A stretch of DNA of 64,000 nucleotides from Actinomadura viridilutea (GTDB lineage: Bacteria > Actinomycetota > Actinomycetes > Streptosporangiales > Streptosporangiaceae): positions 62,001 through 126,000 of the forward strand of contig PVNI01000003.1 in NCBI GenBank assembly GCA_003001795.1. The letters run 5' to 3'. Of the stretch, positions 4,923 through 15,495 are shown one piece after another (within the stretch, counting starts at the first letter, position 1; each line of letters opens with the position of its first letter). Made by a program: the position numbers and the translations under genes. The notes beneath the pieces are model-generated. The model had not been told where the DNA came from. It did no database searches and saw only the letters and a program-made list of their open reading frames with translations.

Positions 4923-6128
4923 GTGTCCCCCACCAACGATGCTCCGAGCCTGGACGACGTGCTCGTCGGCGAGGCGGTGCTGGGCGTCTACCGGCAGATG
5001 TTCGCCGCGCTGGCGCGCGACAGCGGCGCCGTCGTGGACGACCCGGAGATGGTGGACGTGGCGGAGACGCTCCTCGCCGCGTTCGCCGACGCCGGGGAAG
5101 AGGGGCTGAGCCACGAGCAGATGCGGCACGTGTGCCGCCGCTACCCCGCCGAGGTGTTCGAGAACCGGCTGCGCGTGCTCAAGGGCCTGGGCGCCATCCG
5201 GGAGGTGTTCCCCAAGCCGAACCAGCTGCGCTACCGCGCGTCGTTCACCAGCGTGGTGGGGCTGATGTTCATCCGGCGGATGATGCGGGACGGCGGCCAG
5301 AGCGAGATGCACCGGCTGCTGGCGCTGGAGCAGCTCAACGTGGCCGACCCCCGGATGACGGCCGAGCAGGCGCGTGAAGGGGCCGAAGGGCTGGCGCGGG
5401 CGTTCCGGCTGTGGAGCGTGGAGCTGGTCACGCTGACCAACGGGACGATCGAGGAGCTGCGCGAGCAGGCCCCGAAGCTGTGGGGCACCGAGGAGATCCT
5501 CCAGCGGGCCGAGCGCCTGCACGGCGCGATCCTGCGGCGCTGGCCGCAGCTGGACCGCGCCTGCACGGACCTGCGCGCCGCCATCTACGCCTACGGGGAC
5601 GCCTCGCGGCGCGCCGCCGCCCGGCTGTCGGACTCGGCGGGCACGACGCGCAACCTCACCCTGCTTCCGCCCGAGACGTGGCGCACGTTCGCGCGCACCG
5701 CCTCCCGGGAGGAGCTGGCGGCCGTGCTGGACGGGTTCGTGTTCGACGCGCCGGCGCCGTGGCACGAGCCCGCGGCGGTGGTGTCGGCGGTGGAGGACGG
5801 GCCTCGCACGACTCCGCCCCGCCCGGCGCCGCCCCGTCCGTCCGTGCCCGACCCGGGGCTGTCGGAGGACGCGGCGAGCGACGACGCCGCGGCCGAGCGC
5901 CTGCGCGACGTCGCCGAGCAGGTCCTGAGGGGACGCGACAGGGTCGCCGTGGAGGAGGTGCTCGACCGGGACTGGGCGGCCGCACGGCGCCTGCTGGCCG
6001 ACCTGTCGTCGGCGCACCTGCACCCGGAACTGCCCTACAGGCTGGTGTGGTCGGACGGGCTGGCGTGCCGTCCCGACGGGTCGCCCACGTGGCTGTCCCC
6101 CGGCGTGTTCGAAAGGACCGGCCCGTGA
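4923..6128 (+). CDS. SMC-operon protein 1 (candidate kleisin-like subunit)
   Basis: I do not recognise a named family in this 401-residue protein. The N-terminal half is helical. Residues about 60-120 look like a winged-helix unit (GLSHEQMRHVC, then ENRLRVLKGLGAIREVF). The middle is a long helical region containing EELREQAPKLWG. A proline-rich linker near residues 295-320 leads to a short C-terminal domain. A two-domain protein with a flexible linker, encoded first in an operon that ends with an SMC-like ATPase, is what a kleisin of the MukF/JetA type would look like. That is inference from layout, not from a conserved signature. It starts with GTG at 4923 and overlaps the next gene by four bases (GTGA). 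Confidence 0.8.
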   Translation: MSPTNDAPSLDDVLVGEAVLGVYRQMFAALARDSGAVVDDPEMVDVAETLLAAFADAGEEGLSHEQMRHVCRRYPAEVFENRLRVLKGLGAIREVFPKPNQLRYRASFTSVVGLMFIRRMMRDGGQSEMHRLLALEQLNVADPRMTAEQAREGAEGLARAFRLWSVELVTLTNGTIEELREQAPKLWGTEEILQRAERLHGAILRRWPQLDRACTDLRAAIYAYGDASRRAAARLSDSAGTTRNLTLLPPETWRTFARTASREELAAVLDGFVFDAPAPWHEPAAVVSAVEDGPRTTPPRPAPPRPSVPDPGLSEDAASDDAAAERLRDVAEQVLRGRDRVAVEEVLDRDWAAARRLLADLSSAHLHPELPYRLVWSDGLACRPDGSPTWLSPGVFERTGP

Positions 6129-6706
6129 CCCCGCCCGTGCCTCCGGAGGTGCTCGCCCGCGCGCGTGCGCGTCTGCTGGGGGCGCCCGCGATCCCGGTGT
6201 CGGAGCCCGTTCCGCCGGGGCTGCCCACGGCGAGCGACGGCTCGAGCGTCTGGCTGCTGCCTCCGTGGCCCGACGGCGCCACCCCGGCGCTCCTGGAGGA
6301 GTACGACATCGCGCCCATGCCGCTGGACCGGCCCGGCCAGGCGCGCCGCGTCCTGGCCGCCGCGCTGCGCTGCTGCTGGACGCGCCTGGACGACGCGCCC
6401 TGGCCCGGCGAGCCCGCCCCCGTCGGGGACGTGCTGGAGGTGTACGTGCGCATGTCGCGGGGCGACGCGGAACTGGCGCGCCGCTGGGCGACCGGCGAAC
6501 TGCGCCGCCTGCACGACACCGGATGGCTGCTGCTGGACGAGGACACCGCGACCGTGCGGACCGGCCCCCGCATCGCCCTGTGGCCCGAAGGCTCCCTGGG
6601 GCCGCTGCGCGACCTCGTCCGCCGCCTGCCCCAGCCTCCCGAGCCCCTCCCCCACGTCGACGCGCAGGGCGGCGCGGGAGAGCCCGTGGAGGACCCGGGT
6701 GAGTGA
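6125..6706 (+). CDS. SMC-operon protein 2 (small winged-helix-like protein)
   Basis: This 193-residue protein has no family I can name. The N-terminus is proline-rich (residues 1-50). The core around residues 80-165 is helical and ends in a wing-like segment (LRRLHDTGWLLLDEDTATVRTGPRIAL), which suggests a winged-helix domain like those of MukE/JetB or KITE proteins. It starts at GTG 6125, overlapping the stop of the previous gene by four bases. Its own stop overlaps the next start by eight bases. Such coupling argues for a fixed stoichiometry complex with its neighbours. The C-terminal 25 residues are low-complexity and probably disordered. Confidence 0.78.
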   Translation: MTPPVPPEVLARARARLLGAPAIPVSEPVPPGLPTASDGSSVWLLPPWPDGATPALLEEYDIAPMPLDRPGQARRVLAAALRCCWTRLDDAPWPGEPAPVGDVLEVYVRMSRGDAELARRWATGELRRLHDTGWLLLDEDTATVRTGPRIALWPEGSLGPLRDLVRRLPQPPEPLPHVDAQGGAGEPVEDPGE

Positions 6707-7445
6707 GCTTTTCGAGCCGCTGCTTCGGTCCTACGACGAGAAGCGGCGCGCGGAACTCGTCGCCGCCTACATGGCGGTGGAGCACGCGGCCGAGCCCGTG
6801 CCGGAGGTGCGCTTCCCGGCGCTGCGCGAGCCCGCGTTGCGCCGCACGCTCCAGGAGATGCTCGCGCTGACCGGACGCACGCTGGTGCGCACGACCGCCA
6901 AGGGCGGCCCGACGCGCTGGATCTCCGCCTACCGCGACGACGTCGCCGAGGCGCTGGCGGCGGATCCGGCGTGCGTGCCGCCGCCGGACGAGCGCGCCGT
7001 CCTGACGCTGATCCTCATCCACTCCGTGGCGATCCCCCGCGCGGCCGGCCTGCTGCCGGACGACTCGTGGCTGTCGCCGTACCCGACCCCCTTGGACGAG
7101 CTGCGCCGCCGCTCCCAGCTGCCCATCGGGGAGCTGGAGGCCGCCCTGCGGCGCCTGCGCCTGGCGGGCCTGGTGTCGCAGGTGAAGGCGGGCCCGGACG
7201 AGCAGGGCGGCTTCGTCCCGGGGCCGCAGTTCCACCGCCTCACCGAGGCCGCGCGCCGCCGCCTGCAGGAGGAGCTGATCCTCGCCGCGGGCCCGGACTC
7301 GCCGCTGGCCGCCGCCATCCGCGCCCGCCGCCACAGCCGCGCCCGCGCCGCCGCCCAGGCCGACGCCCGGCGCGCCGAGGGCGCGCGCACCGACGCCGGA
7401 CAAGCCGACGCCGCCGAGAAGACGGACCGGGGGGAGATCGCATGA
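6699..7445 (+). CDS. SMC-operon protein 3 (second winged-helix/KITE-like protein)
   Basis: This is a 248-residue protein with a probable winged helix at residues about 130-195 (LDELRRRSQLPIGELEAALRRLRLAGLVSQV, then a charged wing and HRLTEAARRRLQEEL). The C-terminal 50 residues are rich in Ala, Arg, Asp and Gln and look disordered. An earlier segment (RTTAKGGPTRWISAYRDDVAEALAAD) may form a second small wing. It has no catalytic signature. The GTG at 6699 is the first in-frame start compatible with the eight-base overlap with the previous gene. The stop overlaps the ATPase start (ATGA at 7442-7445). By position it would be the MukE/KITE-like partner loading onto the ATPase heads, which is an inference. 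Confidence 0.8.
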   Translation: MSELFEPLLRSYDEKRRAELVAAYMAVEHAAEPVPEVRFPALREPALRRTLQEMLALTGRTLVRTTAKGGPTRWISAYRDDVAEALAADPACVPPPDERAVLTLILIHSVAIPRAAGLLPDDSWLSPYPTPLDELRRRSQLPIGELEAALRRLRLAGLVSQVKAGPDEQGGFVPGPQFHRLTEAARRRLQEELILAAGPDSPLAAAIRARRHSRARAAAQADARRAEGARTDAGQADAAEKTDRGEIA

Positions 7446-10400
7446 CCGCCGTCCTCGAACCGCTGGTGCCCGGACCCGCGCGCCGGGCCGGGGACGACGA
7501 GAACATCGTCGGGGACCGGGTGCTCATCGCCGTGCAGGCGGTGAACATCTCGCGGCTGTCCACGCATCCCGTGCCCACCGTGCCCGGCACGCTCATCGTG
7601 GTGGCCGGACAGGGCCCCAAGGACTCCAACGGCGCGGGCAAGTCGTCGTTCATCGCCGCCATCACCGCGCTGCTGGGCGACGAGCAGTGGCGGTTCGCGT
7701 CCGGGGCGCGCGCCGTCGCCGAGCTGCTGTTCAACGCCGAGCTGGCGGCGCAGGGCGAAGGGCAGTGGGCCAGCGCCGACCACGGCTACATCATCGGCGT
7801 GTTCGACCACGCCGACGCCCCGGAGGCGGACGGCTCGTCGGCGGTCACGGTGTGGCTGCGCGTCAACGCCGACGCCCCGCACCTGGAGATCCGCTGGCGG
7901 CGCGGGGTGCACCTGGCGTCGGCGCCGTCGGAGGCCGAGCGGGTGTCGCTGGCCGACCGGCTGTGGGCGGGCCTGCCGCGCAGCGCCGGGCGCCGCGACT
8001 TCGTCGCCAAGGACCTGACGCGGGTGCTGTACGGCGGGCAGGTGCGGTGCGTGTCGTTCCTGTCCACGTCGGTGCGGTCGAAGGTGGCCACCAACCTGCT
8101 GTCGCAGCCGCTGAACGAGATCCCGCCGGAGCGGATCTTCAGCGCGATCGCCGCGCTCACCGGGCTCGACCGGGAGCTCGAGGCCGAGCGGGTGTCGCGG
8201 GCCGAGGAGCACCGGGAGCGGGCCAAGGCCGCCGAGGCGGCCGAACGGCTGGCCGCCTGGGAGCGCGAGGCCGCGGCGCTGCTGAAGACCTTCGACCGCC
8301 GCGACCGGGCCCGCGAGCAGGTGGCGGCGGCGGTGCGCCACTGGCGGACGCGGCAGGCGCGGCTGCTGGTGGACGCCGTCCAGGCCGACGCCGCGCACGC
8401 CGCCGAGCTGGAGCGGCTGCACCGCGAGGCCGCCGAGGCGGCCGAGGCGATCAAGGCGGCGGAGCGGGAGGTCGAGCAGCTCACCGGCGGCGCGCTGGAC
8501 GCCCGGCTCGCCGAGGCGGGCGCCGCGCTGGCCGAGCTGAAGGGCCGGGCGGACCAGCTCGGCGCGGACAAGGCGGTGGCCCGCAACCGGCTGGAGGAGC
8601 TGCGCCGCCGGGTGTCGGCGCTGGAGGACCGGCGCCGCGACGCCGACGGCCGCGACGCGGACGCGGCGCGCCGCGAGCTGGCCGAGGCCGAGGCGCGCCG
8701 CGACGAGGCGCAGCAGGAGTTCGGCATGGCCCGGGGCGCGGTGGCGCGGGCGGAACGGGAGCTGGCCGAGGCCGAGGCCGGGGAGGGCAGCGCCCCGGCG
8801 CAGATCCGCGCGCTGGCCGCGGCGGGCGTCCCGGCGGTCGGGCTGCTGGACGCGGTGGAGCTCGCCGAGGACGTGCGCGAACGCTGGGAGGCGGCGCTGT
8901 GGCCGTACCGGGAGGCCGTCGTGGTCGGCCCGGACGATCTGGACGCCGCGCTGGAGGCGCTGCGCGGCATGCCCGGCTCGATGATCGTCCCGGCGGACGG
9001 CGGGCTGCCCGCCGACGCCGACGCCGCCCCGCGCGACGGCCATCCCGAGGGCGTGCGCTGCGCGCTGCCGCTGGGCCGGTTCTTCTCCGCCCTCGACGCC
9101 GGGGACGGCTCGGGCGTCGTCATCGTCGGCGGATTCCCCGAGCCGGTGACCGGCCGGGTGGCCCGGGTGCAGGCGGCCCGGGCCGCGCTGGAGGAGGCGC
9201 GCGAGGCGCTGGAGGCGGCCCGGGAGCGCACCGCCGAGGCCGCCGCCGACGTGGCGCAGGCGCGGCGGCGCCTGGCGGGCGCGCAGGCCGCGGCCGAACT
9301 GGAGCTCGTCCGCGAGCAGATGACGCAGGTGCGGGAGCGGCTGGAGGAGGTGGCCGCGAGCGAGGAGAGCCTCGGGCCGCGGCTGGCGGCGGCCGAGCAG
9401 GAGCTGCGCCGCCTGCAGGCCAAGGCCGACACCCGCGCCCTGGAGGCGGACCGGCTGCGGGGGCGCCGCGAGGCCCACGAACGCGCCCGCGACCAGATCC
9501 GCGCCCGGATCGCCGACCTGGAGGGGCGGCGCGCCGCCCTCGGCCTGGCCGACCTGGAGAAGGAGTGGGGCGGGTCGCGGGACGCGGCCGCCGAGTGGCT
9601 GGACGCGCTCACCGACGACGAGAAGACCTGGACGCCCGACGAGTGGTGGCTCACCGCGGAGAAGCACCTCTCCGAGGCGCTGCGCCTGGTCTTCCCGGAC
9701 GGGATCTCCGACGAGGACATGCCCGAGGAGATCCGCTTCCTGCTGCGGGAGCGCACCGAGGGCGAGGGGCGCCGCACCGACCGGGAGCGCTCGACGTTCC
9801 CCCGTCTGGTCAAGGCCCTGGAGGGGTACCTGCGGCAGCAGGAGGACTACGAGCGGCACCAGCGGCGGCAGATCGAGGTGCAGATGGCCGCGCGCCGCGC
9901 CGACCTGGAGAAGGCCCAGAAGGGCGCCGAGGAGGCGGCGGGCGCGGCCGAGGCGCACCGCGCCGCGCTCACCGCGGCGATCCGCACCCGGCTGCAGCGC
10001 GTCGCCGAGGAGTTCGAGAAGCTGGACCTGGAGTACGGCGGCTACGGGGCGACGCTGGAGTTCCCCACGCCCGAGCCGCCCGCCGACCCCGAGCAGGAGT
10101 GGCGGTGGCGCGTCACGCCCAAGTGGCGCCGCTCGGACGGCCAGCGGTACGTGCCCTACAACCGGCGCGCCAACACCGCGCTCATGGACGAGAAGGCCGT
10201 CAAGCTGGTGTGCGCGGCGGCGCTGGCGTCCTCCGGCGGCGGCCGCCTGTGCCTGGTGCTGGACGAGCTGGGCCGCAACCTGGGCAAGGAGCACCGCAAG
10301 GAGGCGGTGGCGCTGTTCCGGGAGATCGGCGAGTCGCACGGCATCACCGTGATCGGCGCGTTGCAGGACGACATGGAGCCGTACGCGATCGACGCGTGCG

Positions 10401-10540
10401 GGCAGTACATCAAGCTGCGCCGCTCGTCCGACACCATGCCCTACAACGAGCCGCCCGTCGTGGTCGGGTACGACCGGCACGCGGCTCGGGTGCGGGCCCT
10501 GGCCCGGCAGATCGGCGCGTCCCGCCCGGCCGACGGCTGA
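7442..10540 (+). CDS. SMC/Rad50-like chromosome-structure ATPase
   Basis: This 1032-residue protein has the SMC layout: N-terminal ATPase half, coiled-coil arm, central hinge, second arm, C-terminal ATPase half. Walker A is GQGPKDSNGAGKSS with Lys67. The Ala/Glu/Arg-rich arms run about residues 240-455 and 575-870. Between them lies a globular hinge (about 456-570) starting GVPAVGLLDAVELAEDVRERW. Near the C-terminus, SSGGGRLCLVLDELGRN holds a signature-like SGGG and Walker B Asp941-Glu942. The arms are short compared with true Smc (about 1200 residues) and fit MksB/JetC-type ATPases. It is the last gene of the coupled operon. No nuclease (JetD/Toprim) gene follows; the next gene is convergent. 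Confidence 0.9.
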   Translation: MTAVLEPLVPGPARRAGDDENIVGDRVLIAVQAVNISRLSTHPVPTVPGTLIVVAGQGPKDSNGAGKSSFIAAITALLGDEQWRFASGARAVAELLFNAELAAQGEGQWASADHGYIIGVFDHADAPEADGSSAVTVWLRVNADAPHLEIRWRRGVHLASAPSEAERVSLADRLWAGLPRSAGRRDFVAKDLTRVLYGGQVRCVSFLSTSVRSKVATNLLSQPLNEIPPERIFSAIAALTGLDRELEAERVSRAEEHRERAKAAEAAERLAAWEREAAALLKTFDRRDRAREQVAAAVRHWRTRQARLLVDAVQADAAHAAELERLHREAAEAAEAIKAAEREVEQLTGGALDARLAEAGAALAELKGRADQLGADKAVARNRLEELRRRVSALEDRRRDADGRDADAARRELAEAEARRDEAQQEFGMARGAVARAERELAEAEAGEGSAPAQIRALAAAGVPAVGLLDAVELAEDVRERWEAALWPYREAVVVGPDDLDAALEALRGMPGSMIVPADGGLPADADAAPRDGHPEGVRCALPLGRFFSALDAGDGSGVVIVGGFPEPVTGRVARVQAARAALEEAREALEAARERTAEAAADVAQARRRLAGAQAAAELELVREQMTQVRERLEEVAASEESLGPRLAAAEQELRRLQAKADTRALEADRLRGRREAHERARDQIRARIADLEGRRAALGLADLEKEWGGSRDAAAEWLDALTDDEKTWTPDEWWLTAEKHLSEALRLVFPDGISDEDMPEEIRFLLRERTEGEGRRTDRERSTFPRLVKALEGYLRQQEDYERHQRRQIEVQMAARRADLEKAQKGAEEAAGAAEAHRAALTAAIRTRLQRVAEEFEKLDLEYGGYGATLEFPTPEPPADPEQEWRWRVTPKWRRSDGQRYVPYNRRANTALMDEKAVKLVCAAALASSGGGRLCLVLDELGRNLGKEHRKEAVALFREIGESHGITVIGALQDDMEPYAIDACGQYIKLRRSSDTMPYNEPPVVVGYDRHAARVRALARQIGASRPADG

Positions 10541-10588: not shown

Positions 10589-12490
10589 TCAGCCCCGCCT
10601 GGCCGCGCCCCGCCTGGCCGCGCGGACGCGCAGGCAGACGAGCACGGCCAGGAGCAGCAGGGTGGCGGTCACGCCGAACGTCCAGGCGAGCTCGCCGCCG
10701 GACCGCTGGTCGTCCAGCGGCGCGACGCCCCAGGTCCGTCCCAGGCGGCTGAACCAGCCCTCGGCCAGCGCGTCGTCGGAGCCGGTGATGACGAGCCCGA
10801 ACCCCACGTGGAACGGAAGCGACGCCGCCAGCAGCAGGGCGCCGCGCAGCCACCGTCCGGGATCGAGGGCGGCCCGCAGGTAGAACACGCCGGCCGCCAC
10901 GAATACGACCAGGGCCAGCGAGTGGACGGCGTGGTTGCGCAGGGACGCCTCGAACAGCGAGGTGAAGTAGAAGCCGTAGAGAGCGGCGACGAAGACCGCC
11001 GGCGCGACGACGGGATGGCCGAGCAGCCGGACGCCGCGGCTGCGCGCCGCCGCGTCGATCAGCTGCCGCGGCCGACCCTCGGGAAGCGCGCGCAGCGCCA
11101 AGGCGACCGGCGCGCCGAGCAGCAGCAGGAGCGACGCCGGCAGGCTCACCGCCATGTGCTGCAGCAGGTGGTCGCTGAACAGCACCATGCTGTAGCGGGC
11201 CAGCCCGCTGCACGTCGCGACCAGCACGATCGTCAACCCGGCGTACCACGCCGCGACGCGCGCGAGAGGCCAGGCGCCGCCGCGGGCGCGCAGCCGCACG
11301 ACGCCCGCCCCGTACAGGACGCCGCCGAGGACGACCAGCGCGCCGCACAGCGGGTCGATCCACCAGTCCAGAGCGTAGGCGGACAGGCTCGGCGGGCCGG
11401 GGAGCGGGAAGCCGAGCCGCAGCTCCACCGGGTCGAGCGTGTCGCTGGCCAGTTCGGGCGGCGGCGTCCGCGACAGCCCGGTGGCCAGCGCCATCACGGC
11501 GGCCATGACGAGGATCTCGACGGCGGCGACGCGCAGGAACGTCCCGGCGGCGCGCCCGGACCGCAGCCGCGGGATGCTCGCGCGGCGGTGCCGCCAGCCC
11601 AGCGCGCCCAGCGCCCCGAGCACGGCGATCTTGGCCGCGACCAGCGCCCCGTACCGGGACCCGAGGTCGACCCCGCCCAGCCGGATCCACGCGTTGACCG
11701 CGCCGCTCGCCCCGACCGCCGCGAAGCACACCAGCGCCAGCGCGCTGTAGCGGGTGACGATCTCGGCGGCGTGGTCCCCGGCCCACCGGACGGCCGCGGC
11801 GAGCGCGACCAGCCCGCCGACCCACACGGCCGCGGCGACGACGTGCGCCGCCAGGCTGTAGACGGCGAGCGTGTGGAAGGAGGCGTCCGCCGCGTGCCCG
11901 GTGAACGACGGCGGCAGCAGCGCGGCCAGCGCCAGCGCGAGCAGGTACCCGGCGGCCTGCGGCGTGCGCGGCAGGTGCGCGGTGACCGCGATGACGGCGG
12001 CGGCCGCGGCGACGGCCGTCAGGGCCCGCCCCTCCGACAGGTCCCGCACGAACGTGGCGAGCAGGTTCTGGGTGAGCCCGCCGAGCGGGACGCCGAACAG
12101 GTCGGCCGCCGAGAAGGCCACCACGGCGAGCGTGGCCAGCGTCCAGCCCAGCGCGCTCAGCGACGCGGCCCGCAGGCACCGGTCGAGGCGGTCGGACGCG
12201 GCGGGCAGCAGCACGGCGGCCAGCAGCAGCCATCCCACGGTGAGCGTCGCGGCGGCGTTCATCGCCAGCTCGGACACGGCCAGGGCGCCCTTGGTGAAGG
12301 CCCCCGACTGGGTCAGCCCGGGCGCGACCTGCTCGCTCAGCGAGCCGCCGAACCGGACGACGGCCGCCAGCACCACCATCGCGACCGCGACGGCGCCGAG
12401 TGCGACCTGCGCGGGCCCGACCGTCGCCGCCGGCCGCGGCGACGCCGTCAGGACGGCCCGCCCGTTGTCGTGGGTCTGCGCGCTGCTCAT
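10589..12490 (-). CDS. CopD-CtaG fusion membrane protein (copper handling)
   Basis: This is a 633-residue polytopic membrane protein. The first half (about residues 25-320) has the CopD-type copper-resistance domain, with helices and a conserved HVVAAAVWVGGLVAL segment. The second half is a cytochrome-c-oxidase assembly (CtaG/caa3) domain with LFSDHLLQHMAVSLPASLLLLLGAP and HAVHSLALVVFVAAG histidine-bearing helices. Such fusions are common in actinobacteria and are thought to take up copper and deliver it to oxidase or other cuproenzymes. The start is set at ATG 12490, preceded by AGGAAAGG. An earlier ATG at 12604 would add an arginine/glycine-rich, non-membrane extension that looks artificial. 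About 14-16 membrane helices are expected. Confidence 0.88.
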   Translation of the reverse strand: MSSAQTHDNGRAVLTASPRPAATVGPAQVALGAVAVAMVVLAAVVRFGGSLSEQVAPGLTQSGAFTKGALAVSELAMNAAATLTVGWLLLAAVLLPAASDRLDRCLRAASLSALGWTLATLAVVAFSAADLFGVPLGGLTQNLLATFVRDLSEGRALTAVAAAAAVIAVTAHLPRTPQAAGYLLALALAALLPPSFTGHAADASFHTLAVYSLAAHVVAAAVWVGGLVALAAAVRWAGDHAAEIVTRYSALALVCFAAVGASGAVNAWIRLGGVDLGSRYGALVAAKIAVLGALGALGWRHRRASIPRLRSGRAAGTFLRVAAVEILVMAAVMALATGLSRTPPPELASDTLDPVELRLGFPLPGPPSLSAYALDWWIDPLCGALVVLGGVLYGAGVVRLRARGGAWPLARVAAWYAGLTIVLVATCSGLARYSMVLFSDHLLQHMAVSLPASLLLLLGAPVALALRALPEGRPRQLIDAAARSRGVRLLGHPVVAPAVFVAALYGFYFTSLFEASLRNHAVHSLALVVFVAAGVFYLRAALDPGRWLRGALLLAASLPFHVGFGLVITGSDDALAEGWFSRLGRTWGVAPLDDQRSGGELAWTFGVTATLLLLAVLVCLRVRAARRGAARRG

Positions 12491-12582
12491 ACCTTTCCTG
12501 TACGGCGCCGCGCCGAGCCTCCGTTCAACCTTCGTCCGAGCGGTCGCTGCGCTCCGGCCCCGTCCGGCGGGCGGAAACGGCG

Positions 12583-12622
12583 GGCCCCCGCCCCGGGGCC
12601 TCACGGCCTCGAGGCGGGGGCC
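12583..12622 (-). terminator. Terminator after sugar ABC operon
   Basis: Ten-base perfect arms GGCCCCCGCC (12583-12592) and GGCGGGGGCC (12613-12622) flank a 20-base loop. On the minus strand the hairpin lies just after the stop of the ABC ATPase gene and is followed by a short T run, so it probably ends that operon. Confidence 0.65.
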
Positions 12623-12670: not shown

Positions 12671-13463
12671 GCTCCTCGGCGACGGTCCGGGACGTCGACT
12701 CCAGCTCGTGGGCGAGCTGCTGGAGCTCGGCGCCGCCCGCCATGAGGGAGGTGAGATCCTCGCGGGTGATCTCGTCCTTGGTGTGGTAGCCGAGGACGCG
12801 GCCCCGGTTGAGGATGAGGAACCGGTCCCCCACCGGGTAGGCGTGGTGCGGGTTGTGCGTGATGAACACCACGCCGAGGCCGCGTTCGCGCGCCTGGACG
12901 ATGTAGCGCAGCACCACGCCGGCCTGCTTGACGCCGAGCGCGGCGGTCGGCTCGTCCAGGATCAGCACCTTGGCGCCGAAGTAGACGGCGCGGGCGATCG
13001 CCACGCACTGCCGCTCGCCGCCCGACAGCGTGCCGATCGGCTGGTCGACGTCGCGCAGGTCGATGCCCATGCGCAGCAGCTCGGCCTTGGTGGTGCGGCG
13101 CATGAAGTCCACGTCCAGCATCCCCCAGGCCTTGCGCTTCTCCGAGCCGAGGAAGAAGTTGCGCCAGACCGGCATCAGCGGCACCACCGCCAGGTCCTGG
13201 TAGACGGTGGCGATGCCGCGGTCGAGCGCGTCGCGGGGCGACTCGAACACCACCGGCTCGCCCTGCACCTCGTAGGTGCCGGTGTCGTGCCGGTGCAGCC
13301 CGGCGATGATCTTGATGAGGGTGGACTTGCCCGCCCCGTTGTCGCCCAGCACGCAGGCGACCTCCCCGGCGTGCACCTCCAGGGAGACGTCGCGCAGGGC
13401 GATGATGTTGCCGTAGTTCTTGCCCACGCCGTCCAGCCGGACCAGCGGCACCCGTTCGCTCAT
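12660..13463 (-). CDS. Sugar ABC transporter ATP-binding protein
   Basis: This 267-residue ATPase powers uptake by the two genes upstream. It has Walker [10 protein letters not shown], the Q-loop region [12 protein letters not shown], the signature LSGGERQ, Walker [12 protein letters not shown] and the switch histidine in [10 protein letters not shown]. It is one ATPase domain, not the double-domain RbsA/XylG form, matching the FrcA-type single-domain subunits of pentose/inositol transporters. ATG 13463 overlaps the permease stop (ATGA). The C-terminal tail (about residues 235-267) is helical and acidic. The 11-bp tandem repeat begins exactly at its stop codon. Confidence 0.92.
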
Positions 13464-14518
13464 CGCGACTGCTCCATTCTGCGCCGGACGACCAGGTTCA
13501 CCACGGTGGCCAGCAGCAGCATCGCGCCGAGGAAGAACTTGAACCAGTCGGGGTTCCACTCCGCGTACACGATGCCCTTGTTGGTCATGCCGAAGATGAA
13601 CGCGCCGATCGCCGCGCCCACCGCCGAGCCGTACCCGCCGGTCAGCAGGCAGCCGCCGATGACCGCGCAGATGATGTAGAAGAACTCGTTGCCCACGCCC
13701 TCCCCGGACTGGACCGTGGCGAACGCGAACACCAGGTGCATGCCCGACAGCCAGGCGCAGAACGCCACCCCCATGAACAGCCCGATCTTCGTGCGGTCCA
13801 CGGGGACGCCCACCGCCCGGGCGCTGGCCGGGGCGCCGCCCACCGCGAAGATCCAGTTGCCGATCCGGGTGCGCAGCAGGATCCACGTGGCGACGGCGAC
13901 GAGCAGCAGCCACCAGAACACGGTGATGTTGACGCTCACCCCGCCGATGTCGAGCTGGGAGGCGAACACCGCGCGGGCCGAGGAGAAGCCGTCCATGTCG
14001 CGGACCGAGTCGCTGGCCACGTTGCCCGTGACGGCCTTGGTGACGCCGAGGTTGGCGCCCGCCAGCATGAAGAACGTCGCCAGCGTGATGATGAAGCTGG
14101 GCAGCCCGGTCTTGACGTACAGCAGGCCGTTGAGGAACCCGAGGGCGAGGGTGACCACGAACGAGATCGCCACCCCCACCCACAGGTTCAGGGTGAGCTG
14201 GTAGCTGACCAGGGCCGCGACCAGCGCCGAGGTCGTCACCATGACCCCGGCGGACAGGTCGAACTCACCGCCGATCATCAGCAGCGAGACCCCGACCGCC
14301 ATGATCCCGAACGTCGAGGCCGCGTACAGCACCGTGGAGAACGACTCGGCGCGCAGGAACGCGTCGGCCACCACGGAGAAGAACACGAACACCACGACGG
14401 CGCCCAGCAGCGCCCCCAGCTCGGGACGCGACAGCAGGCGGCGCGCCAACGACCGCTGCGCCAGGCGCTCGTCGCCCCCCGCCACCTTGGGCGAGGGATC
14501 GGCCACCGCCTGTCCCAT
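13460..14518 (-). CDS. Sugar ABC transporter permease (RbsC/FrcC type)
   Basis: This 352-residue inner-membrane permease of the BPD_transp_2 family has about ten hydrophobic helices. It contains the typical [20 protein letters not shown] segment after the third helix and the late [28 protein letters not shown] coupling region. It starts at ATG 14518, one base inside the stop of the binding-protein gene, and overlaps the ATPase gene by four bases. The N-terminal 30 residues are polar and cytoplasmic. With its neighbours it forms a complete importer for a neutral sugar or cyclitol. Confidence 0.92.
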
Positions 14519-15495
14519 CAGCGCGTCCCCCGGTTCGCGTAGGCCTCGATCTGCGCCGCGGCGTCCTTGGTGACGATGGCCGGACCGGTCAGCACCGGAC
14601 GCCCGCCGCCCAGCGTGTTGCCGTTGGTCTTGTACAGCCACAGCGCGTCGACGGCCTCATAGCCCTGCAGGTAGGGCTGCTGGTCGACGGCGAACTGCAC
14701 CGAGCCCTCCTTCATCAGCCGGACCAGGTCCTTGTTGAGGTCGAAGGTGGCGACCTTGGCCGACGAGCCGCTCTCCTTGACCGAGTCCACGGCGGTCGCG
14801 GCGACCGCGGCGTTCAGGGTCAGCACGCCGTCGATGCTCTTGTCGGACTGCAGCTTGGCGGTGATGGACGACTTGACCTGCGGCATGTTGGTGCCCTGGA
14901 CGAACAGGTTCTGCATCTCGCCGCCGAAGGTCTTCTTCGCCCCGGCGCAGCGGTCCTCCAGCCCGACGTTGCCCTGCTCGTGGATCACGCACAGGGCCTT
15001 CTTCGCCCCGATCTCGGCCAGCTCGCGCCCGGCGGCCTCGCCCGCGACGGTCTCGTCCTGGCCGAAGTGCGCGATCGCGCCGTACTGGGCGGAGACGTCG
15101 GCCCCGGAGTTGATGGACACCACCGGGATCTTGGCGGCGACGGCGCGCCCCACCACGTCCTTGAGCGCGTCCGGCTTGGCGAAGGTGACGATGATGCCGT
15201 CGACCTTCTTGTCGATCGCCGACTGGACGAGCTGCGCCTGCTTGCCGCCGTCCGGGTCGGCCGAGTAGAGGAACTTGGCGTTGTGCTTGGCCGCGGCGGC
15301 CTGCGCGCCCTTCTGGACGATGTCCCAGAAGGCGTCGCCCGGCCCGGAGTGGGTGATCATGGCGATGGTGAGGGGCGGTCCGCCCGCCGTGGCGGCCTCC
15401 TCGGCCTTCTTGCCGCCCGACTCACTGCACGCTCCCAGCGCCAGCGATGCCGCGGTGCCCAAGGCCACCAGCCCCATGATCCGAATGCGCTTCAT
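14518..15495 (-). CDS. Sugar/inositol ABC transporter substrate-binding lipoprotein
   Basis: This 325-residue lipoprotein belongs to the periplasmic-binding-protein type 1 (ribose/xylose/inositol) group. The N-terminus MKRIRIMGLVALGTAASLALGAC carries a signal peptide with lipobox LGAC (Cys23). The mature protein shows AMITHSGPGDAFWDIVQKGA, the hinge-side DGIIVTFAKPD and VVSINSGADV motifs, and late FAVDQQPYLQGYEAV. It would capture the substrate at the cell surface and hand it to the downstream permease. The inositol-dehydrogenase-like gene upstream on the same strand suggests a cyclitol, but a pentose is possible. The 295 bases upstream (15496-15790) hold no gene; I see only GC-rich short inverted repeats there. 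Confidence 0.92.
   Translation of the reverse strand: MKRIRIMGLVALGTAASLALGACSESGGKKAEEAATAGGPPLTIAMITHSGPGDAFWDIVQKGAQAAAAKHNAKFLYSADPDGGKQAQLVQSAIDKKVDGIIVTFAKPDALKDVVGRAVAAKIPVVSINSGADVSAQYGAIAHFGQDETVAGEAAGRELAEIGAKKALCVIHEQGNVGLEDRCAGAKKTFGGEMQNLFVQGTNMPQVKSSITAKLQSDKSIDGVLTLNAAVAATAVDSVKESGSSAKVATFDLNKDLVRLMKEGSVQFAVDQQPYLQGYEAVDALWLYKTNGNTLGGGRPVLTGPAIVTKDAAAQIEAYANRGTR

Follow-up and report, generated by a model that had tools for sequence, protein, structure and literature searches.

The 64-kb stretch of DNA from the soil actinobacterium Actinomadura viridilutea analysed here (hereafter the window) carries a four-gene operon encoding an ATPase of the structural maintenance of chromosomes (SMC) type and three smaller proteins, here called A, B and C. 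No nuclease gene adjoins it. We hold with moderate confidence that the products form an SMC-kleisin-KITE complex, akin to MukBEF and Wadjet, which would likely clamp and loop the host's own chromosome. The operon is likely a divergent sister line of Wadjet, disarmed by loss of its nuclease and acting as a condensin-like chromosomal complex. What makes the case informative is that the same operon is found with the nuclease JetD in one lineage, and without JetD and inherited with its hosts in three families.

Structure of the operon

The four genes lie on the forward strand and overlap by 4, 8 and 4 bases. Gene A (4923-6128, 401 aa, GTG start) encodes a predicted kleisin, gene B (6125-6706, 193 aa) a predicted single winged-helix subunit and gene C (6699-7445, 248 aa) a predicted tandem winged-helix, KITE-like subunit; the product of the SMC gene (7442-10540, 1032 aa) has half of an ATP-binding cassette (ABC) type head at each end, a hinge-like domain in the middle and two coiled-coil-like arms. 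Ratios of non-synonymous to synonymous substitution (dN/dS) are low against the nearest relative (locus L030), at 0.11 for A, 0.35 for B, 0.22 for C and 0.24 for SMC, so that all four are real genes under purifying selection, B being the fastest evolving. Coordinates and overlaps agree with a preliminary description of this DNA, which had recognised four genes with these overlaps ending in a 1032-residue SMC-like ATPase. In the host genome, an assembly of 62 contigs and 6.7 Mb, the operon SMC has a single match. By SMC identity, Actinomadura sp. NBRC 104425 (L030, 92%) is the nearest named relative among the best 80 of 180.

Gene order is well conserved. Among 89 loci, the window included, that were chosen by the presence of both C and SMC, clustering of open reading frames (ORFs) placed a homologue of A upstream on the same strand in 76. 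Ten of the remaining 13 have less than 2.1 kb of upstream DNA, two (L053 and L068) have A by tblastn, and A of the last (L127) is divergent. The order A, B, C, SMC on one strand holds in 75 of the 76 loci with all four genes annotated, the lone exception (L057) being one in which the script called the SMC start too far upstream.

The SMC protein combines standard Walker motifs, both of them as in the ATPase of Wadjet (JetABCD), with an unusual signature. These motifs were compared across 92 SMC copies, four of which are duplicates from two genomes: L001 is the locus of the window itself, and L002, L125 and L127 are a single locus. Walker A (7613..7648, +; GPKDSNGAGKSS, residues 58-69) reads GPKDSNGAGKS in 84 of the copies and GPKGDSNESGKT in three, and is unmatched in five, while Walker B (10247..10273, +; LCLVLDELG, residues 936-944) is present with DELG in all 92. 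The canonical SMC signature is LSGGEK. At the position that hand alignment on the following EK and helix makes equivalent (10172..10195, +; residues 911-918), the window protein has NTALMDEK, a motif shared by 80 of the 92 copies; the nine Jiangellaceae have NTAQMDEK and the three copies of the JetD-bearing locus discussed below have NSAREK. By this alignment none of the 92 has an LSGGE-type signature, whereas the host's own JetC2, from a Wadjet type II operon, retains SGGE. The changed motif hints that the ATP cycle may be altered and perhaps slowed. Segments with few glycine, proline and aromatic residues (234-301, 350-449 and 567-701), which serve as a rough stand-in for coiled coils, flank the middle domain, and inspection by eye of the 1032-aa sequence revealed no CxxC zinc hook of the SbcC/Rad50 kind.

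Structural models give the small proteins plausible roles. The alignment of gene A (A2) holds 40 sequences, and the model of A has a winged helix at about residues 64-106, helices at 108-239, a low-confidence linker and a second winged helix at about 319-398; this predicted layout, with a winged helix towards each terminus and helices between them, is the kleisin architecture of the MukBEF/MksBEF type. MukF, not ScpA, is among its first Foldseek matches, at weak E-values (none ≤0.001), and A is predicted to be a MukF-like kleisin candidate. In a joint B-C model, C forms two winged helices and B a single one; the KITE protein ScpB tops the Foldseek matches and MukE and JetABC chains are also listed, again with no E-value ≤0.001. 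The absence of JetB or MukE from the VIA list for this model is no evidence that such likeness is absent. C also matches the Pfam family DprA_WH above its cut-off (32 vs 22.9 bits). On these models C looks like a KITE-like protein and B like an extra winged-helix subunit, and together with the DprA_WH match they support the earlier proposal of a condensin-like SMC operon with winged-helix partners.

The two smallest genes appear to belong together. For comparison we divided loci into a Streptosporangiaceae group and a Thermomonosporaceae group, according to whether SMC identity to the window lies below or above 65% and, in counts of neighbours and fusions, also by fusion state. B and C form one ORF in 36 of 39 Streptosporangiaceae-group loci, or 36 of the 37 in which both are annotated, B not having been recovered by the script in L037 and L041; no fusion occurs among the Thermomonosporaceae-group loci. 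Since the one split pair, in Bailinhaonella (L040), lies on the first branch of an otherwise fused group, a single fusion event fits, and with the genes fused in 36 of 37 loci we prefer to see them as a single KITE unit in two pieces and not as separate partners. The earlier idea of two distinct small winged-helix partners holds insofar as both are winged-helix proteins in the models; it fails insofar as they are a single protein in so many relatives, and the 401-aa protein is itself the kleisin candidate.

The missing nuclease

Wadjet consists of a kleisin, a KITE protein, an SMC and the nuclease JetD/MksG, and occurs as three types of which type I is the most studied, according to the available text of three papers (PMC10586767, PMC10512200, PMC10123090). 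A JetD Toprim nuclease encoded within the operon, as Wadjet has, was found in only one of our loci (L127), with a remnant in another (L128). JetD profiles have no match in the window, in the 80 named loci or in nine Jiangellaceae loci, and 75 of the 78 named loci with an annotated SMC extend at least 1.5 kb past it; nor do A, B or C have a nuclease-like Pfam or NCBIfam match at E≤1. The absence of a nuclease subunit was thus correctly noted from the outset.

A search for the four-gene order in other genomes, to look for a linked Toprim/JetD gene, had also been suggested, and L127 answers it. In this locus, from a distant relative in the same phylum (G151), A-B-C-SMC is followed 12 bases on by a gene for a 461-aa protein that scores 36 bits against DUF2399 (cut-off 23.4) and 1.7e-6 against the PADLOC JetD model; A of this locus is 30% identical to the window protein over 264 residues. 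E317, D364 and D366 are invariant across 16 aligned members of the nuclease family, a pattern which we take to be that expected of a Toprim active site. The second locus, L128, belongs to another genus of the same family (G140) and has at 465-2408 pieces of A, C and SMC and then directly JetD, in that order; it lacks internal parts of the operon, of which it is either a decayed copy or a faulty assembly. A hunt for further JetD-bearing operons among 30 and 66 genomes around G151 returned only G151 and G140.

The relationship between armed and unarmed operons could be read in two directions. We propose that the ancestor would have been a Wadjet-like five-gene system and that JetD was lost along the branch leading to the window. 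Under the reverse history, which is compatible with the function that we favour, the complex was free of a nuclease from the start and the L127/L128 lineage gained JetD. We regard such a gain as doubtful: only two related loci, one intact and one a remnant, have been seen with JetD, and the root of the SMC tree is not fixed while the L127 branch is long, but the order A-B-C-SMC-JetD is the Wadjet/Mks order of kleisin, KITE, SMC and nuclease, as given for mksFEBG in the available text of PMC10123090, and, among the candidates that were scored, 133 further homologues of the L127 JetD reach E≤1e-6. Because its gene order matches in this way, loss of JetD needs fewer assumptions. We nonetheless put loss forward as the likelier course and no more, because the JetD-bearing state is represented by one intact locus and one remnant in fragmented assemblies and by a long branch.

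Distribution and inheritance

The operon is inherited with its hosts. In an unrooted tree of 88 SMCs, in which the L127 branch is very long, each of three families forms one side of a branch with support of 97-100, and the tree requires three changes of family label against a shuffled mean of 35.9, so that it follows the host families; the duplicates L001, L002 and L125 were left out, as were L074, L057 and any SMC shorter than 900 aa. The best 80 of 180 relatives retained from the genome-collection search come from Actinomadura, Nonomuraea, Streptosporangium and kin, more distant operons lying outside those 80. SMC was found in three of 296 genomes in a sample of the phylum, the host included, and A in 29 of 394 genomes in a sample of the class: 14 of the host's own family, 14 Jiangellaceae, and G310. 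The G310 match (L124 6041-6604) is a lone 187-aa piece of A with 37% identity, with no B, C or SMC found elsewhere on its contig of 13.4 kb. At E≤1e-5, 53 genomes of genus g205 match A; totals per genus rest on the host's own genus only, since 20 of the 173 non-matching genomes of the family are listed and 18 of those belong to it. Two homologues of A and SMC (P0021 and P0176, 89% and 77% identical to the window proteins) each lie on a 38,360-base contig labelled Mycobacterium tuberculosis, a label that is probably wrong. Because the operon is not universal, being common in some genera and absent from part of others, it is dispensable.

Mobile elements were considered as a source of the operon and set aside after scans of viral contigs, plasmids and phages. 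In pattern scans of viral contigs, which for the two single proteins reach close relatives only, neither the SMCs of the window and of L127 nor the JetD family had a relative. Among 72,556 plasmid records the operon (A and SMC) is present in one, and JetD of the L127 type was found neither there nor in phages. The single record (NZ_LT559118.1) is from Nonomuraea gerenzanensis and, at 11.85 Mb, is chromosome-sized though filed among plasmids.

These patterns bear on whether the complex might still act against plasmids or phages without cutting them, recognising circular foreign DNA by loop extrusion and compacting or silencing it in the manner of eukaryotic Smc5/6. Its kinship with a JetD-bearing operon would suit such a role, as would its presence in 47 of 65 genomes of the host's genus, non-universal as expected of defence genes, and Smc5/6 is treated in the available text of PMC10586767 as acting against extrachromosomal DNA. 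We think this unlikely, however: the SMC gene tree follows the hosts, plasmids yielded that one chromosome-sized record alone and viral contigs, scanned for close relatives, nothing, and the six window neighbours to which a type was assigned (SbcD, a RibD-type reductase, an aldehyde dehydrogenase, a CopD/CtaG protein and two sugar-transport proteins) include no defence gene. A chromosomal target, rather than a plasmid one, would be in better accord with these observations.

Other nucleases and neighbouring genes

Could the complex recruit a nuclease encoded elsewhere? The candidates would be the neighbouring SbcCD and the JetD of the host's own Wadjet type II. The SbcD exonuclease gene (762-1913, -) lies outside the operon, about 3 kb upstream, and SbcC (1-789, -), identified by homology cluster, is cut by the window edge. 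Of the loci with flanks of at least 9 kb on both sides, 25 of 30 in the Streptosporangiaceae group and 11 of 23 in the Thermomonosporaceae group have SbcC or SbcD in those flanks, and these are the only two of the 12 most frequent neighbour clusters that are common to both groups. They lie on the opposite strand, upstream in the Thermomonosporaceae group (not in L029) and downstream in the Streptosporangiaceae group; their recurrence reflects either reshuffled old synteny or a functional link. No SbcC or SbcD was found in the nine Jiangellaceae loci, whose flanks measure 4.5-12.5 kb, and this counts against a shared dependence on them.

The host genome contains one DUF2399 gene, on another contig, within a complete Wadjet type II operon (G000:C6:16262-24305, or L126 9262-17305) whose JetA2, JetB2, JetC2 and JetD match TIGR02677, TIGR02678, TIGR02680 and TIGR02679/JetD, so that one genome contains two SMC operons of broadly this kind. 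JetD_C (PF09983) was not found in the host genome, the Corynebacterium glutamicum control being positive; the search for DUF2399 in genomes had no positive control genome for that family. Twenty-eight genomes with the nuclease-less operon (14 from the host's family and 14 Jiangellaceae) divide into 13 that have DUF2399, two others that have JetD_C and 13 that match neither; each JetD-family gene is either on a different contig from the operon or separated from it by 177 kb or more. Eleven of the 13 DUF2399 genes, those of the host and ten other genomes, adjoin matches to JetA2, JetB2 and JetC2 (partial for three); in G401 DUF2399 occurs with JetA2 and JetC2 matches only, and in G414 a fragment of it stands alone. 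Thus, while the recurrent SbcCD neighbours and the complete Wadjet II of the host would make a borrowed nuclease conceivable, DUF2399 is absent from 15 of the 28 operon genomes and both JetD families from 13, and where DUF2399 exists it mostly sits with its own JetA2, JetB2 and JetC2 matches. The suggestion that a nuclease is supplied from elsewhere is so far unsupported and we judge it improbable, the recurrence of SbcC and SbcD near the operon being the strongest point in favour of its SbcCD form.

On the other side of the operon, a gene with CopD and Caa3_CtaG domains (10589-12604, -) faces its end, and genes for a transport permease and a periplasmic sugar-binding protein follow beyond it at 13460-15495.

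Relationship to defence families

Sequence profiles place the operon outside Wadjet types I-III, to which its membership was ruled out by Pfam, NCBIfam and PADLOC searches together with profile comparisons with type II. A, B and SMC stay below the cut-off of every Pfam and NCBIfam model, the score of B against Pfam JetA being 10.9 bits (cut-off 26.2; E 0.16). The PADLOC Jet models of types I-III match none of A, B and C at E≤1, and the sole PADLOC match of A is DrmMI (E 0.025); SMC reaches 1.4e-4 at best against JetC2, over residues 235-494. The members thus do not match the JetA, JetB and JetC models of these types, nor do the name lists of relatives call the genes Wadjet or Mks members; the outcomes that the preliminary description said would overturn it, namely such naming or small proteins with neither winged-helix nor kleisin similarity, did not arise. 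Sequence profiles of the Protein Data Bank gave no meaningful match for A, B-C or SMC, and A and B-C have no match at E≤1 with profiles of solved MukE and MukF.

The best PADLOC match of SMC is LmuB (2.1e-11), but it runs through the coiled coils (48-696) and LmuB also matches the host JetC2 and the L127 SMC, A, B and C have no match to the PADLOC models of LmuA or LmuC at E≤1, and A models as a kleisin, so that we find it scarcely credible that the operon is a Lamassu-like sensor whose effector lies unrecognised in A or B.

Proposed function and history

A nuclease-free chromosomal complex might work as follows. Two SMC subunits would dimerise through the hinge, and the kleisin A would link their two ATPase heads; C would sit on A as the KITE element, extended by B as a further winged-helix domain, and the binding and release of ATP would power the trapping of DNA and the enlargement of loops. 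We infer these subunit roles and the part played by the ATP cycle. More tentatively, we suggest that the operon represents a fourth, unnamed branch of Wadjet-like plasmid-defence systems that was disarmed once, by loss of JetD and remodelling of the signature, and kept for chromosome care in three actinobacterial families, in one of which its two-gene KITE became fused.

Several observations weigh against a chromosomal complex of this descent. The two models (B-C and A) have moderate confidence, with mean predicted local distance difference test (pLDDT) values of 71.0 and 71.6 and predicted template modelling (pTM) scores of 0.38 and 0.53; their Foldseek E-values are weak, and the VIA matches of the B-C model are mostly generic single winged helices. 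Profile comparison with Wadjet II of the host type found no similarity for A, B or C and a weak one for SMC (probability 47). The changed signature could mean impaired ATP hydrolysis. A matches in 168 of the 341 genomes of the host's family as well as in the 47 of its genus (E≤1e-5; a few weakly), and the JetD-bearing state comes from assemblies of about 200 and 170 contigs.

Within the literature searched, in the text available and with preprints and most subscription journals outside its scope, the operon is not described. The relation of Wadjet to other SMC complexes is presented as unresolved in the available text of the three papers cited above (PMC10586767, PMC10512200, PMC10123090), one of which, a review, finds it a tempting speculation that defence systems arose from a chromosome system and later yielded new chromosome systems in their turn (PMC10586767). 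In C. glutamicum, MksB, whose system has its nuclease, is reported to have no effect on chromosome organisation (PMC10123090, available text), which is a caution against deducing a chromosomal role from SMC likeness alone.

If the complex does act on the chromosome, it offers a living test of whether defence machines and chromosome organisers interconvert, and if it is a fourth branch that was disarmed, it would be a direct case of defence machinery turned condensin. As armed and unarmed versions are both known, the proposed switch between defence and condensin can be tested by comparison, and in 11 of the 28 operon genomes, the host included, the nuclease-less operon coexists with a Wadjet II for which all four parts have matches. 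The unusual and strictly kept signature motif gives a way to ask how far the ATP cycle is required in such complexes.

Comparison with known systems

The likeness of the operon to the core of MukBEF and Wadjet is to be kept apart from membership, since it has neither the Wadjet sequence matches nor an adjoining nuclease. Smc-ScpAB resembles it in that ScpB provides the first Foldseek matches of the B-C model, and differs in that the window SMC is far below the cut-offs of the NCBIfam Smc models (35 and 33 bits vs 729 and 567) and A has MukF, not ScpA, among its first Foldseek matches. The host's own Wadjet type II (TIGR02677-TIGR02680, G000:C6) is likewise a kleisin, KITE and SMC operon in the same cell, with a DUF2399 gene as in L127, but it is complete with JetD, retains the canonical SGGE and shows no profile similarity to window A, B and C. 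With Wadjet at large (JetABCD; MksBEFG), which restricts circular plasmids, the operon has in common a gene order in which the kleisin comes first, the KITE next and the SMC third (with JetD after it in L127), the Walker motifs, the KITE- and kleisin-like models and, in L127, a gene of the DUF2399 nuclease family; the window operon departs from it in having no adjoining nuclease, no PADLOC JetA or JetB match for A, B or C, a KITE split over two genes, the signature NTALMDEK and inheritance along host families.

MksBEF exists in a nuclease-free form, and MukB has about 1486 aa. From MukBEF the window operon differs by its extra winged-helix subunit B and its SMC of 1032 aa. With MukBEF and nuclease-free MksBEF it shares an SMC with a predicted kleisin and a candidate KITE protein and without a nuclease gene, the kleisin model being nearest to MukF in Foldseek, at weak E-values, and the likeness of folds lying in the predicted architecture, and it likely shares their chromosomal role as well.

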